DNA of 63,746 nucleotides, taken from positions 1 to 63,746 of the IMG/VR virus record IMGVR_UViG_3300027985_000695; one strand, written 5' to 3'. Below, one piece after another: positions 33,688 through 50,680 of this stretch (position 1 is the first letter of the stretch; each line of letters starts with the position of its first letter). A model generated the notes under the pieces. It had not been told where the DNA came from. It made no database searches and saw only the letters and a list, made by a program, of their open reading frames with translations. This DNA is from a virus. The position numbers and the translations under genes are program-made.

Positions 33688-33758
33688 TTATAATGCCTCC
33701 ATATTGCAACGACGACAACCGCCGCCAGGACTGCGTAGAATACGACGTAGCCGCTCAC
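33684..33758 (-). CDS. 24-residue single-pass membrane protein
   Basis: A tiny gene fitted between Ro60 and the next gene: the GTG start overlaps the Ro60 stop and the TGA forms ATGA with the next start. The product is one hydrophobic helix (VVFYAVLAAVVVVAIW) with a basic end. Both overlaps are the usual sign of translational coupling, so this is likely to be translated. It is too short for most gene finders. Confidence 0.6.
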   Translation of the reverse strand: MSGYVVFYAVLAAVVVVAIWRHYK

Positions 33759-35071
33759 TCGGAACGCTCCGACTCGTTGATGAACCTGAACACGTTCTCG
33801 GAGAAGCCGTCGATGTGCGTCCACGCTCCGTAGCCGACGCCGTTCTCGTAGCTGGCCACGTTGATGATGTACGCATCCTTGGCATACGGATCCGGAACTC
33901 GGTCGTCCGTGATGACGATGATTCTGTCATGCTCGACCTTGTTCATGTCTGACACCGTCTTGCCAAGGTACGTAGCGTTGTGGTCGGTTGCGCGCATGAT
34001 CGTGTCGCCGAGAGGGAATCCGCGGTGAGGCGCAACGACCCTGTGGAATGTCGAGAAGGCGACGATCATGCATTCCTCGCAAATCTCCCTCGCGATCATG
34101 GCGAGGGCGCAGGCGGCATGGATTCGCTCCATGTCGCTCTTGGCCGACACCTTGGTTTGGTACATGGACCCGGAGTTGTCCACGACGATGATCGTCTTGC
34201 CGGGGAGTTTCGGCATGTCGAAACAGCACGAGAACAGCTTTTTCTCAAGAGCGTCGAGGACGATGCTCGACTGCGTGTATGAGGCGGCTGCGACGAACCT
34301 GAAGGGCAGGACGCGGGATGCGTTCATGTCCTCGATTGCGCCGGCGATCTTCTTGGGCGGAACATCGACGAGATGCATATTCCTGATGTTCCTGAGCACC
34401 GCCAGGCCGCCGAGCTTCTTCTCGTCGATCAGTCGCTCCCAGACCTCGCGCTTTTCTTCATCGCTTTTGCACTGCGACAAGCCGACCTCCCACGTGTCGG
34501 GAACGGCAAGCTTGTCGTCGAGCAGCTTTCCGAAAATATCGCTCTGGGCGACGTCTTTCGGCCTCGGATGAATCAGAAGCATGGCGTCCTTGAGCGTGAT
34601 CTCGCGCTTGCGATTGTATTTCGCAAGCTGGTACTCGCTGAACTTGTTGAAGGCGTCGCCGAGGCCGCGCTTCACGCATGCGGCGATGGGAGTCTTCCCG
34701 TCCTGCCAGTACATGGCCATGAACTCGGTGATCTCGTCGGGGCGCCCTATGATGTTGGCTAGGAGGTCGGCGACCAGATGGCGGGCATCCTTGCGGCGAA
34801 CGAGCTCGCGCGCCAGGAGAAGCGGAACGTGGCGCAGCTTGAAGTCGTACCGCGCTTCGATGGCGAGGTCGGCCACCTTCGACGGCTCAACGGACGCGCA
34901 CAGCGTCTTTATACGGTCGGCGATGCTCACGCCGTCCTCGTAGAACTGGTTTTCCCACAGGAGGCACGCGGACACCGTTCGGCGCAGTTGACGATATCCG
35001 TCGAGAATGACGGCCTTGGCGCCCTCATGGGTGTTCGGCTTCTTTTTCGCTTTGTTCAATCGCATGTCCAT
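33755..35071 (-). CDS. rsr: Ro60/Rsr ortholog (TROVE + VWA domain RNA-binding protein)
   Basis: A 438-residue protein; I chose ATG 35071 because AAAGGAGC precedes it, while an upstream in-frame ATG lies in a terminator stem. Residues about 10-270 form a TROVE HEAT-repeat ring, with the diagnostic LRRTVSACLLWENQFYEDG near residue 30. Residues about 290-438 are a VWA domain with an intact metal site (DNSGSM). Bacterial Ro60 proteins bind small Y RNAs and, in Deinococcus, link to polynucleotide phosphorylase for RNA decay. It is shorter than typical bacterial orthologs. Three Y RNA-like elements lie directly upstream on the same strand, the expected neighbourhood. Confidence 0.9.
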   Translation of the reverse strand: MDMRLNKAKKKPNTHEGAKAVILDGYRQLRRTVSACLLWENQFYEDGVSIADRIKTLCASVEPSKVADLAIEARYDFKLRHVPLLLARELVRRKDARHLVADLLANIIGRPDEITEFMAMYWQDGKTPIAACVKRGLGDAFNKFSEYQLAKYNRKREITLKDAMLLIHPRPKDVAQSDIFGKLLDDKLAVPDTWEVGLSQCKSDEEKREVWERLIDEKKLGGLAVLRNIRNMHLVDVPPKKIAGAIEDMNASRVLPFRFVAAASYTQSSIVLDALEKKLFSCCFDMPKLPGKTIIVVDNSGSMYQTKVSAKSDMERIHAACALAMIAREICEECMIVAFSTFHRVVAPHRGFPLGDTIMRATDHNATYLGKTVSDMNKVEHDRIIVITDDRVPDPYAKDAYIINVASYENGVGYGAWTHIDGFSENVFRFINESERSE

Positions 35072-35090
35072 GCTCCTTTGAAGCCCCAAA

Positions 35091-35130
35091 ATAAAAGGAC
35101 GCCACACGGGGGCTAGTCGTGTGGCGTCCT
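35091..35130 (-). terminator. Intrinsic terminator of the Y RNA transcript
   Basis: A perfect 13-bp stem (AGGACGCCACACG and its complement, 9-base loop) followed on the - strand by TTTTATTTT. It lies nine bases after the third Y RNA-like element and before the Ro60 start, so the RNA genes probably end here with some read-through into Ro60. Confidence 0.9.
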
Positions 35131-46103: not shown

Positions 46104-47942
46104 ATGGATCGCAAGCAGATTCAAGGGTTTTTGTCGGCCCTTTTCGACGGCAAACGGGAAGAGGATTACATACTTATATGGGACAAGTCACCAAAAGGCG
46201 TAAAGAGTTCGCGGTGGTTCAGGCGAACGGGAGACGCGGCGAATCACATCATGGGCATGCCCTCGCACGACGTCTACGTGCAGGGCGTTTCAAGCCCGCA
46301 TGATTTCGGGCCGACGTCCAGATGCCTGGCGCGCCTGGCGTCAGGCATACCGGGCGTGCGCATCGACCTTGACGTAGCGCACGACGTTCACAAGAAAAAG
46401 GACTCGCTTCCGAAGACAGACGCGGAGGCGTTGTCCATACTCAAGGAAATCCCCGATTTTCTTCAGCCTACAATCATCATTCATTCCGGCCACGGCTTCC
46501 AGATGTGGTGGCTCTTCCATGAGTTCTGGAATTTCGACACCGACGTGGAGCGCAACGAGGCGGCTACGCTCGTCAATGCGTGGCAGAAGACGATGGCCGC
46601 GCACATGTCCGGCCGCGGGTGGACTCTCGACCCATGCCAGTCGCTCGGTCATGTCTTCAGGGTGCCGGGGACATTCAACAACAAGGAGGAGCAGCTTCCA
46701 GTCAAGATTGTAGGAGGCTCGGAAGCGAGGTTCTCGCCTGAAGACTTCGACGAGTACATCGTAGGCGGGGACCATTCCATAGAGTACAGCGATGCCACCG
46801 AGGAACGAGTTGGCATCGTTGTTCGTAAGGGGGCCATGCCTCCCGAACACAAGCTTGTGGCCCTTCTCGACATCGATCCCAAGTTCGCCGGCTCGTGGCG
46901 ACGCAGCCGCAAGGACTTGAAGGATCAGTCCATGAGCACATATGACGCATCCCTCACCGCGATTGCGATCTTGAACGGGTGGGGCGACCAGGAGGTTGCG
47001 GATTTAATCATCGCCTTCCGCGAGAAGATTTTCGCCACCGGGGCGCTCAAGGATGCGGACTTGCGCAAGGCGTACCGCACCGACTATCTGCGCCGAACCA
47101 TTGATACTGCGAAGAAGATGCTTGTCGAGAGCAACCGCACGGCCCTCACCGCCAGCGACATGCGCCGCGCCCTCAATTTGTACGAGGACGCCGAGGCGGC
47201 GCCGAAGCCGATCATGAATGAGGGCGAAGAGGAATGCGACGACGCGGCCCCTGCCCCTCCCGATCTCATGGCTCAGGCGCGGTCAGCTGCGCTCGACGCT
47301 CTCTCCGCGTATGTTTCAGGCCCGGACAAGCCGACGCAGGTCACGGCTCTTGTGAGTTACCGCGACGGCGACAAGGTTGAGTATGTGCTTCACACCGACC
47401 GTGGCCAGGTGAGTCTGGGGTCGAGCGACGACATGTTGAGTCAGGCGAAGTTGCGGGGCCGGATTATGACCGGCCTTTTGACGTTGCCACAGAAGATGAA
47501 GGTCCAGGCGTTCGAGACGATAGTCAGCGGCTTCATGCGCATTTGCGAGCCTGCGCCGGACAACGAGGACGCGACGGTAGAGGGCGCCATGCTGTCGTGG
47601 TTGCAGCAGTACCTTGAAGAGCGCCGCGTGGCCACGAACGTGGACGATGGCGTGTACTATGGAAGGCGCCCATTCTTGAAAGACGGCGTTACGCACTTCT
47701 TCTTGAACTCTTTCGTCACGTGGCTTTCATCCAACGGCGACCGCATGGGCCGCAACACCATCTCAAAAATCCTCCTTCAAATTGGCTGCGGCCAGTCGAA
47801 GGACAAGCATGCCCTTGAGGGCGGCGTCGTGTATTCACGGACGTATACTGCCCCCTCTGCATTGCAGCAGACGTGGCTGAAGGTGAACGTAACCCCTCAT
47901 CTTGTCATCGCGAAGAAGCAAGATGCTACCGAGAGTCAGTGA
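46104..47942 (+). CDS. Archaeo-eukaryotic-type primase (PriPol/AEP) protein
   Basis: A 612-residue protein. The primase core lies at about residues 60-210: motif I GVRIDLDVAHD gives the metal-binding DxD, motif II IIHSGHGFQMWWLF gives the SxH, and motif III region is GHVFRVPGTFNNKE. A PriCT-like helical domain follows (DASLTAIAILNGWGDQEVAD, then LRKAYRTDYLRRTI). No helicase Walker motif is seen in the C-terminal 250 residues. It would make primers, and perhaps short DNA, at the phage origin. The genome has no DNA polymerase gene, so the host enzyme probably extends them. Confidence 0.8.
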   Translation: MDRKQIQGFLSALFDGKREEDYILIWDKSPKGVKSSRWFRRTGDAANHIMGMPSHDVYVQGVSSPHDFGPTSRCLARLASGIPGVRIDLDVAHDVHKKKDSLPKTDAEALSILKEIPDFLQPTIIIHSGHGFQMWWLFHEFWNFDTDVERNEAATLVNAWQKTMAAHMSGRGWTLDPCQSLGHVFRVPGTFNNKEEQLPVKIVGGSEARFSPEDFDEYIVGGDHSIEYSDATEERVGIVVRKGAMPPEHKLVALLDIDPKFAGSWRRSRKDLKDQSMSTYDASLTAIAILNGWGDQEVADLIIAFREKIFATGALKDADLRKAYRTDYLRRTIDTAKKMLVESNRTALTASDMRRALNLYEDAEAAPKPIMNEGEEECDDAAPAPPDLMAQARSAALDALSAYVSGPDKPTQVTALVSYRDGDKVEYVLHTDRGQVSLGSSDDMLSQAKLRGRIMTGLLTLPQKMKVQAFETIVSGFMRICEPAPDNEDATVEGAMLSWLQQYLEERRVATNVDDGVYYGRRPFLKDGVTHFFLNSFVTWLSSNGDRMGRNTISKILLQIGCGQSKDKHALEGGVVYSRTYTAPSALQQTWLKVNVTPHLVIAKKQDATESQ

Positions 47943-48548
47943 CCCATGGCGTAATTTCCCGGCGCGGCGCAAATTTCCCGTTTTTCCAGAAAAACGCCGC
48001 CACCGCGCAAGTCACCGAAACCACAGGCGAATGTAGCGCATGGGCCGGTGTGAGGCGAAAAAGGCGCTTTTATACGTATACACGGAAAAAAAGTGATTTT
48101 TGGAAAACAGGGGCGATCTAGCTCAAATCGTTGATGTAAAAACGGAACCACTAATAAAATCAATAGTTTACGGCCCATATAAACGCCACCAAAACGCCAC
48201 CGAAAGGCCAAATAGTTGGAATTATTGAGTCAGAAACGCCACTTTTATGGCACTACAGAAAGTTGACCTTATAACGCGGCCATGTTGGATTGTAGTAATG
48301 TAGTACATGTCCCGTGTCATTTATATAAGAACGGGGAAAGAAGGGAGCGGGGAACTATGCGGCCGGGCTGCGGAGATGGACGATGCATTGAAGAGCGGCG
48401 GGAGAGAGGCATAAAACCCTCCCCCTCGCGCCTGTGGCCGCAATGAACCCTTGTCTGAGCCATACATTCCCCGCCCTCCGTGGAGCATCTTGGCGGGAGA
48501 GCGGGGAATCAACAATAAAACAGGGCCGAAAGGGCCGAAGGGGGACAA
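47943..48548 (+). other. AT-rich non-coding region with short repeats, candidate replication origin
   Basis: No reading frame here is convincing. The region is clearly more AT-rich than the flanks and contains AAACGCCACC at 48181-48190 and 48192-48201, AAACGCCACT at 48234-48243, and a gapped copy at 47992-48004, plus two AATTTCCCG boxes near 47952 and 47971. Such iteron-like copies beside a primase gene are typical of origins. A possible -10 (TATAAG) lies near 48330, upstream of the helicase gene. A purine-rich stretch fills 48340-48420. Confidence 0.5.
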
Positions 48549-50211
48549 ATGGGGTCTGAGCGCGGTAAAGAGTATCGCGTCTACGGCCCCCCGTGACTCG
48601 GGGTGCGGTAAGACGACGTATATGACTGATGCCATCGAGAAGACTGCGATGCAGGAAGGACCGTATAACATCATTGTGTCATCGTACACAAAGGCGGCGG
48701 CGTATGAGTTGGTGCATAGAGTGGTAGGGATACCTGAGAGCGCCATAGGTACGTTGCATGCACACTGCTTCAGAGCGTTGGGGCTGAGTGGCGTAGCGGA
48801 GACTGAGGATAGTCTTGAAGCGTGGAATGAAGAGTATCCGGGTCTGCCGATAGGAAAGACTGCGAAGAGCGTCGAGGATGCCCAGAGTGAGATAACAGGG
48901 CAGGGAGAAGGGTCGAGGCTTCTGATGGAGTATGGCAGGATGCGCAACCTGCTGCGGCCGAGAGAGTTGTGGCCGTCTGACGTCGAGTCGTTTGCGGTGA
49001 AGTGGGAGGACTTCAAGAAGCAGATAGGACTGCCTGACTTCACGGATATGATAGAGCTTGGACTGACGTGCCTTGATGGAGCGCCTAACGGGGCGACCGT
49101 AGGGTTCTTTGATGAGGCGCAGGACTTCAGCGCCATGCAGTTGGCATTGGTTAGGAAGTGGGGCGAGAAGCTGAAGTTTCACATCCTGGCTGGTGATGAT
49201 GACCAGACGCTGTACTCGTTCGTCGGGGCGACGCCTGATGCATTCCTGACGCCTGAGATACCGGAGGAGCAGAAAAGGTTTCTGACTCAGAGCTACCGGG
49301 TGCCGTCGCTGCCGCAGGCTGTTGCGGAGGCGTGGATCAGGAAGGTGTCGATACGGCAGGACAAGCCGTACCATCCGAGGGTGGACGAGAACGGGTTCGT
49401 CGTCGAGGGTGAGGTGACGACGCTGCATCATGGAACGATGAACGATACGCAGGCGGTGGTCGACTATGCGGCTGCGGAGGTGGAGGCGGGGCGAAGCGTC
49501 ATGATCCTGGCGTCGTGTTCGTACCAGTTGCAGAGGATGATATCGAACCTGAGAAGGGACGGTCTGCCGTTTCACAATCCGTACAGGAGAAGCAACGGGG
49601 CATGGAATCCGTTGGCGCGGCGAAAGGGATCGACGAGCACTGCGGACAGGCTGCTTGCATTCATGCTGCCGGAGGCCGGGAGTGAGGACTTCCCCCTGTG
49701 GTCGCCGCGGCAACTCTCGATGTGGGTCGAACTCATCAAGACGAAGGGAGTGCTTCAACGCAAGGGGAAGGAAAGAATCAGGGACATGGTTGCGAGCGGC
49801 ATGCATCTCGACCAAGGAAGGCTGTCTGAGTTCCTGATGGACATGTTTGAGCCTGAAGCGCTGGACATGGCCATAAGCTTCGACGCGCACTGGCTGAAGG
49901 AGCATGCGCTGAAGTCGAAGGCGTCGGCCCTTGAGTTTCCGATGGATGTCATAAGGAAGAGGGGCCACGAGGCGCTCGTGAATGTGCCGATGATCATTCC
50001 GGGCACGATTCACAGCGTCAAGGGAGGACAGGCGGACACGGTCATCGTCGTGCCGGACATATCGCAGCAGGCGTATGAGCACTCGTTGACCACGGCCGGA
50101 TCCGATGATCTGGTGAGACAGTTCTATGTAGCCATGACGAGATGTCGTCAGAAGCTTGTGTTCTTAAAGCCCGCGACGAACAGTTACGCAAGGGGGATGT
50201 ATGACTATTGA
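48549..50211 (+). CDS. UvrD/Rep-type helicase, frame disrupted inside Walker A
   Basis: From ATG 48549 (AAGGGGG upstream) the frame reads M.SERGKEYRVYGPP and then hits TGA at 48594. If seven bases (48594-48600) are left out, it continues GCGKTTYMTDAI and stays open to 50211, giving an exact GPPGCGKTT Walker A. Later motifs are intact: VSSYTKAAA (Ia), GFFDEAQDFSAMQ (II), AGDDDQTLYSF (III), SYRVPSLP (IV), HSVKGGQADTVIV (V) and QFYVAMTRCRQKL (VI). An alternative start at 48451 is in the downstream frame but gives unlikely low-complexity residues. Either a recent 7-base insertion or a recoding event is implied. Confidence 0.8.
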
Positions 50212-50680
50212 CAACGATGTGCCGTCGCCTGAGTTCGTGAAGTTGAAGCCGAAAAAGGTGAAGGAGACGAGCATAACGAACAGGATCATCGAGGCGCTGA
50301 ACAAGGTGGCATACGTCAAGCTGAAGAAGTTCCACGGCTCGGTGTACGGGCATCCCGAACTCGACATCTACGGGTCCGTGTTCGGGCGCCCCGTCTTCAT
50401 AGAGGTCAAGGTTCCAGGCAAGAAACCGACGCCGAGGCAGGAACAAATCATCGCGGAATGGAATCAGGCCGGCGCGATTGCGGTGTGGGCCACAAGCTTG
50501 GAAGAGGCGGTCGTAGCGATTTACAAAGGGCTTATGGATTACAACGACGTTTCCTGCGATTCGTTCTTCGCGGCTTGTGAACTGGCCTTGGCGAAAAACG
50601 CCTTGCCGTATTTGCGGGAATATGCCCTGAATCGGCGCCAAGCGCCCCGGACGGGCGCGTTTTCGGAGAAACCATGCTAG
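50201..50680 (+). CDS. VRR-NUC domain nuclease
   Basis: A 159-residue protein. The core is VKLKKFHGSVYGHPELDIYG, then RPVFIEVKVPGKKPTPRQEQ: the GxPDxxG/ELDIYG and (I/F)EVK elements are the catalytic residues of VRR-NUC (PD-(D/E)xK) nucleases. The domain runs from about residue 25 to 120. Phage VRR-NUC proteins often act as Holliday-junction or structure-specific nucleases beside helicases, as here. Starts 11 bases inside the helicase gene. Confidence 0.85.
   Translation: MTIDNDVPSPEFVKLKPKKVKETSITNRIIEALNKVAYVKLKKFHGSVYGHPELDIYGSVFGRPVFIEVKVPGKKPTPRQEQIIAEWNQAGAIAVWATSLEEAVVAIYKGLMDYNDVSCDSFFAACELALAKNALPYLREYALNRRQAPRTGAFSEKPC

Follow-up and report, generated by a model that had tools for sequence, protein, structure and literature searches.

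The window (the whole stretch of 63,746 bases analysed here) is a tailed phage record in which genes for the portal, the capsid, the terminase and an endolysin were recognised; the relatives of its capsid and terminase come mostly from phages of bacteria. Additionally, it encodes a TROVE/Ro60-like RNA-binding protein with a vWA-like part (33755-35107, minus strand; PF05731, 9.5e-21), a response-regulator receiver domain fused to a PAS domain (61977-62885, plus strand), which is unusual cargo for a phage, and a SNF2-type helicase (39453-41117, plus strand), the second helicase of the genome. The search against Rfam returned no match anywhere in the window, e.g. no Y-type RNA. The gene of interest encodes a UvrD-like helicase and is split within its Walker A motif (Table 1).

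Table 1. Features of the split helicase gene and its neighbors in the window.
Feature	Position	Strand	Basis and remarks
Primase-like gene, upstream	46104..47942	+	relative found in 5/5 related contigs tested
SD-like sequence AAGGGGG	48538..48544	+	sequence; just before ATG 48549, 5' of the hairpin
Leader ORF MGSERGKEYRVYGPP, first half of Walker A, ends at TGA	48549..48596	+	homologous to EYR(I/V)(F/Y)GPP of relatives
Hairpin preceding the take-off codon, its end 3 nt short of the stop	48551..48590	+	-21.7 kcal/mol, z -2.82; counterparts in relatives
Proposed take-off codon CCG (Pro)	48591..48593	+	CCN in 40/40 distinct elements
Nucleotides proposed to be skipped, UGA + C	48594..48597	+	stop adjoins CCN in 40/40 elements
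Proposed landing triplet TCG	48598..48600	+	can pair with tRNA-Pro, G.U at first position; L346 likewise
Main helicase ORF, UvrD-like SF1, resume codon GGG (GCGKTT...)	48601..50211	+	sequence, Pfam
Endonuclease / Holliday-junction-resolvase-like gene, overlaps the helicase end	50201..50680	+	

The leader MGSERGKEYRVYGPP runs from its ATG directly into a TGA (48594-48596), while the GCGKTT frame is open up to the stop at 50209-50211 and comprises 536 residues. The halves of Walker A are thus parted by the seven bases TGACTCG (48594-48600), for which a placement one or two bases further left is equally valid because of the flanking CG repeat. The original prediction, made from the letters of the window, had described this split by seven extra bases with an in-frame stop exactly, and it was right that their omission restores GPPGCGKTT: the unbroken form in homologues is YGPPGxGKTT, the motif is uninterrupted in the Meiothermus and Thermus phage homologues (33-35% identity), and the locus L012 has almost identical DNA without the insert. 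Its ribosome site ahead of the upstream frame corresponds to the SD-like sequence of Table 1. The Pfam UvrD-helicase profile matches the 48601 ORF from residue one (E = 3e-14), and the protein carries the UvrD N-terminal domain together with DEAQD, GDDDQ, TIHSVKGG and TR, which we take to be SF1 motifs, so the remaining helicase motifs are intact, as had been claimed. Walker A itself is not intact in the conventionally read ORF and would be whole only if bypass occurs. A different, continuous N-terminus in the 48451 frame, named beforehand as an observation that would speak against the split, is absent from every homologue examined. The word TGACTCG is not more frequent in the window than expected by chance, and a search of nearby repeats for a source of template gave nothing decisive. 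Upstream of the helicase start there are an inverted repeat of 14 nt and two tandem copies of AGGGCCGAA (48466-48509 and 48522-48539), and a GGGCCGAA word found there resembles the 5' hairpin arm of relatives.

In the first set of relatives (the best 80 loci, of which two that do not cover the site were dropped), all 78 P-loops are continuous, which initially suggested a lone defect or error in the window; the wider search overturned this idea. With a better profile, 152 more loci were obtained among the matches listed; 27 lack the 5' end, and the 125 scored comprise 117 continuous and six interrupted loci, one with an intein (L192) and one unrelated (L245). Pooled over both homology searches, 195 of the 203 loci covering the site are continuous. 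All six interrupted loci (L176, L197, L214, L251, L276 and L289) have a stop within the GPP part and a short insert. Five of them have TGA immediately behind GPP, and their inserts measure 15, 11, 24, 13 and 6 nt; in L289 (around 2480-2500), which represents a second kind of interruption, the sequence GGT TGA AGC CCA CCC places the stop after the Gly codon of GPP, i.e. two codons earlier, with six extra bases.

We scanned 2.9 million viral contigs of IMG/VR for GGC-CCN-CCN-TGA followed by 0-30 free bases and GGN-ACN-GGN-AAR-AC, and found nine loci, seven of which are this helicase and two unrelated ATPases (L330, L331). A scan for TAA/TAG, planned as a negative control, yielded 13 loci, all of them interrupted helicases, and is hence counted as evidence. 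Together the two scans, which permitted gaps of 3 to 33 nt (stop included), gave 22 loci, among them 20 helicases; 17 of the 20 have a gap of exactly 6 nt, and in all 17 the last triplet is CTN or CCN, though any triplet was permitted. The last scan admitted all Gly codons, had TRR for the stop (so that TGG was permitted) and CNN after it, with the first C fixed and the second position free. Its 42 loci are all helicases with true stops (TAA 16, TGA 15, TAG 11; TGG in none), and CTN or CCN precedes the resume codon in every one. The collection scans may miss records very near the window.

Altogether, 50 loci in UvrD-like helicases of phages and prophages, the window included, are interrupted by a stop in the P-loop. 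The commonest form is CCN-STOP-CYN-GGN with a 6-nt gap; gaps of 7, 8, 11, 13, 15 and 24 nt also occur, so the interruption is not restricted to one frame, and the 7-nt gap of the window is unique in the set. The 40 distinct elements use all three stops (TGA 18, TAA 14, TAG 8). Among 297 Acidobacteriota genomes the only match was G031, the genome of L176 itself, and in a plasmid collection 16 records have distant matches. The interruption was seen in no named phage among the P-loops checked: those of MMP7, Riverbug, PMBT28, 023Pt_psg01, R26L and K21lambda1 are continuous, and so are those of the named records DSL-LC04, ct3Et533 and HTVC023P. In two loci from one Bryobacterales assembly (L206, L207) the matches of the helicase copies switch between two or three frames in other parts of the gene, which may represent decay or further recoding.

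The hairpin upstream of the stop is the structure that recurs; the elements were not picked for hairpins. We compared 40 distinct elements (47 sequences before removal of duplicates; L357 and L360, with little upstream sequence, and L289, with a different take-off, were excluded) with 152 distinct uninterrupted sequences that have the DNA pattern for GPPG[TCS]GK[ST]. For the 50 nt before the stop, the mean z of folding relative to shuffled sequences is -4.42 in the interrupted and +0.12 in the uninterrupted set (Mann-Whitney p = 4e-22). The median best-stem score is 30 versus 13, and the lower quartile of the interrupted set is attained by none of the 152 uninterrupted sequences. In 39 of the 40 elements the stem ends 0-5 nt before the stop; the remaining one is the window, whose best single helix lies further in and scores lowest of the 40, the hairpin being a discontinuous stem that in full ends three bases before the stop. 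In 17 elements with identical geometry, pairing holds in 99.5% of cells; the value is 35-63% when the partner is shifted by 1-3 bases, and 41% for the uninterrupted relatives. The 3' arm consists of the codons for the residues directly before the stop (in the window the Gly-Pro codons GGCCCC), and the 5' arm changes along with it between lineages (GGGCCGAAGA/TCTTCGGCCC, AGGGCCAAAGAT/ATCTTTGGCCCT, AGGGCCATGCAG/CTGTATGGCCCT). Hairpins are moderate in L334, L353, L363 and L333 (z -2.1 to -2.7) and barely present in L361 (z -0.68). The Acidobacteriota-type elements have a longer stem that touches the stop and a longer, purine-rich gap. The original prediction had pointed to pairing of the C and G runs around the insert; CCCCG-TGACT-CGGGG can indeed pair, but weakly (z -1.27 for the 28-mer, not significant), and we rejected it as the main signal, the recurrent structure being the upstream hairpin.

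Positions 1 and 2 of the predicted landing triplet can pair with G36 and G35 of tRNA-Pro by the anticodon rules, with G.U allowed, in 36 of the 40 elements including the window; the four Acidobacteriota-type elements L176, L197, L214 and L251 lack a pairing-competent triplet directly before the resume codon. The combination of CCG with TCG is common to the window (gap 7) and L346 (gap 8). An SD-like word lies at most 16 bases 5' of the stem in 36/40 elements, compared to 51/152 uninterrupted sequences (searched at a fixed offset), and strict six-base SD words were found in 25/40 versus 11/152. Folding out the hairpin places this word at a distance of 7-11 nt to the landing triplet in 31 of the 36. 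In several elements it simply acts as the start signal for a leader of very few codons, but 18 of the 40 have no in-frame start after it, which makes a second role, in landing, possible. Leaders of only 9-15 residues, as found in several elements, rule out a long stimulatory nascent peptide there.

Both parts of the split gene appear to be coding. For nine pairs of interrupted helicases the dN/dS ratio of the part after the stop is 0.04-0.22, which indicates purifying selection and hence that the downstream frame is translated and needed; the closest relative of the window helicase shares only 43% identity, too distant to measure selection on the window gene itself. The leader peptide tracks the helicase subfamily and retains subfamily-typical residues, which marks the GPP half as coding as well. 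A protein with the complete Walker A would then require both to be joined.

We consider a programmed translational bypass, i.e. a stop-hop within Walker A of a phage UvrD-like helicase, to be the probable explanation of the interruption (roughly 85%). The window possesses each part of the element. A ribosome starting at ATG 48549 would first open up the hairpin (48551-48590); on its arrival at CCG (48591-48593) the A site would hold UGA, in the UGAC context, which terminates weakly. The hairpin would then re-form behind the ribosome and, as its presumed motor, pull the mRNA forward; peptidyl-tRNA-Pro would leave CCG, pass UGAC and re-pair at UCG (48598-48600), possibly helped by the SD-like sequence. 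Decoding would resume at GGG 48601, giving ...RVYGPPGCGKTT..., i.e. GPPGCGKTT without any extra residues. Our reading is built on features of sequence: an anatomy that comes back at the same codon, a hairpin, landing triplets capable of pairing, and selection on the downstream frame of relatives.

The nearest competitor is stop-codon readthrough or a +1 frameshift at CCC-CCG-UGA, which would add two residues to the P-loop (GPPDSGCGKTT). A +1 shift where UGA follows a Pro codon is known from Listeria phages (CCC_UGA) and pheL, as described in a review (PMC5009743), a +1 shift would restore the frame across the 7 nt of the window, and the 6-nt class taken alone needs nothing more than readthrough adding two residues. 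We regard it as unlikely: a hop fits gaps of 6, 7, 8, 11, 13, 15 and 24 nt, while a single type of frameshift or readthrough does not, as differing gap lengths would require different shifts. Moreover, all three stops are in use, the P-loop would be lengthened although its spacing is normal in 78/78 and 117/125 of the covering relatives, and the CTN/CCN before the resume codon would be left unexplained.

That a recent 7-bp insertion simply inactivated the window helicase is less probable still. The conventional reading does give a split ORF, most covering loci (195/203) are continuous, and the SNF2-type protein provides the phage with another helicase; however, a stop occurs in this motif at 49 other loci, which mostly also have the hairpin and the pairing triplet, the interrupted relatives are under purifying selection, and the remaining motifs of the window helicase are intact. 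The original prediction had also held that the loss, if real, would be recent, but the interrupted lineages are diverse and selection maintains their helicases. A sequencing or assembly error, conceivable for a metagenomic virus record at a C/G-rich site, has very little left to commend it, with the same motif stopped in 49 loci of other records and no second frame break in the ~16 kb of the window that have homologues. We judge equally improbable a separate start of the downstream part at the CUN/CCN triplet, with the hairpin delivering the Shine-Dalgarno sequence as the accessible text of PMC3014915 describes for a structure in T4 genes 38 and 25: despite the SD-like words and their folded-out spacing, CCA, CCG, CCT and TCG are not start codons, and the product would be devoid of the GPP half that the leader conserves as coding sequence. 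Most likely, the window helicase is neither dead nor the product of misassembly, and among the options listed originally it is recoding or bypass that the 49 further loci with the same kind of anatomy strongly support, rendering the inactivating insertion and the assembly error unlikely.

The proposed bypass is best read as a new, short variant that would work like that of T4 gene 60. According to the portions of PMC5009743, PMC11194080 and PMC3014915 available to us, gene 60 likewise is a phage gene with a stop adjoining the take-off codon, re-pairing at a downstream triplet, an upstream stem-loop thought to pull the mRNA, an SD-like landing aid and relatives without the gap. In gene 60, however, the gap has 50 nt, the GGA codons match, a stem-loop surrounds both take-off site and gap, and a nascent peptide is required, whereas the helicase elements have gaps of 6-24 nt, Pro CCN as the take-off codon, landing often by G.U and leaders down to 9-15 residues, and recur in many phages. 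With respect to the hallmarks of bypassing, we found two coding stretches of one protein parted by non-coding nucleotides, a stop directly 3' of the take-off codon (40/40 distinct elements) and a 5' stem-loop upstream of the take-off site (weak in L361), but not a stem-loop formed with gap nucleotides, for which most of the gaps, at 6-24 nt, lack the length; the latter is a feature of gene 60, not one of bypassing in general.

Synthetic stop-hops, made in reporters, use matched codons around a stop and read nine nucleotides as one amino acid, and CCN-STOP-CYN is the same arrangement; according to the 2016 review, in the sections accessible to us, natural in-frame stop hopping has no known occurrences (PMC5009743). 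The same text describes many short skipped inserts in the mitochondria of Magnusiomyces capitatus, some with imperfectly matched take-off and landing codons as here, but these 81 sites lie in the mitochondrial mRNAs of one organism and appear to be independent of mRNA context (PMC5009743), while the helicase elements affect one codon of one gene family in many phages and nearly always have an upstream hairpin. CCC_UGA frameshifting of Listeria phages shares the Pro codon beside UGA, but it is a one-base shift between overlapping codons, as far as the available text goes (PMC5009743), and the helicase gap lengths do not fit it. A bypass candidate from a Streptomyces phage, as summarised in the available excerpts, resembles the elements in being a phage gene with a short gap and an SD-like sequence 5' of it, and differs in the gene and in the involvement of a UUA codon. 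The accessible parts of the reviews name one proven case of phage translational bypassing, T4 gene 60, and one candidate, and the titles and abstract openings of the open-access literature contain no report of bypassing in a phage helicase. The helicase elements may be the first natural family of stop-hops.

On a tree built from 150 helicases, 35 of its rows being interrupted, this state requires at least 17 changes, compared to ~31.7 for shuffled labels, with gains and losses undistinguished; 14 of the 17 are forced by well-supported branches. In one clade the interruption is present in 19 of 20 rows, but the clade was sampled largely via scans for the interruption; its exception is the named record Phage DSL-LC04, whose GPPGSGKTT is continuous and which differs cleanly from L363 by six bases. 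In the Acidobacteriota group, interrupted members share 85-94% identity with one another over the 65 bases that make up hairpin and site, and 56-62% with uninterrupted close relatives, while the respective values for the downstream part of the helicase are 69-74% and 71-81%; between L197 and L231 the identity is 75% upstream, 79% downstream and 56% in between. This pattern suggests that the element moves between phages as a cassette, although functional constraint on the hairpin could also have raised its identity.

A possible reason for the site is provided by inteins. In L192 an intein separates GPPG from TGK within this P-loop, a single codon away from the proposed hop site, and intein signatures occur elsewhere in the interrupted helicases L332, L346 and L361 (in L361 below the curated cut-off). 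At least 700 residues are reached by 3/35 interrupted and 2/115 uninterrupted helicases of the tree set. As a separate observation, inteins or intein-sized in-frame inserts are present at several helicase motifs in L192, L332, L346, L361, L208/L209 and L306/L307. For the gap of T4 gene 60, protection against a homing endonuclease has been proposed, according to the part of PMC5009743 available to us. By analogy, it is plausible that the interruption shields the P-loop DNA against inteins. We tentatively speculate, at odds clearly below even, that the SD-like sequence, hairpin and CCN-STOP-CYN make up a stop-hop cassette that is widespread, was acquired repeatedly and may be mobile. By splitting the best-conserved DNA of the gene it would confer immunity to P-loop inteins and their homing endonucleases, with the protein mended by the ribosome, and it would be the first programmed stop-hop family found in nature.

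In phages with this element, the helicase gene is broken up by gene callers. If the bypass is real, dozens of natural variants in gap, stop, take-off/landing pair and hairpin would allow the mechanism to be dissected by comparison, and the elements would supply compact parts for reporters. The family, whose members carry inteins at several motifs, would also offer a testable case of immunity to selfish DNA at the level of translation.
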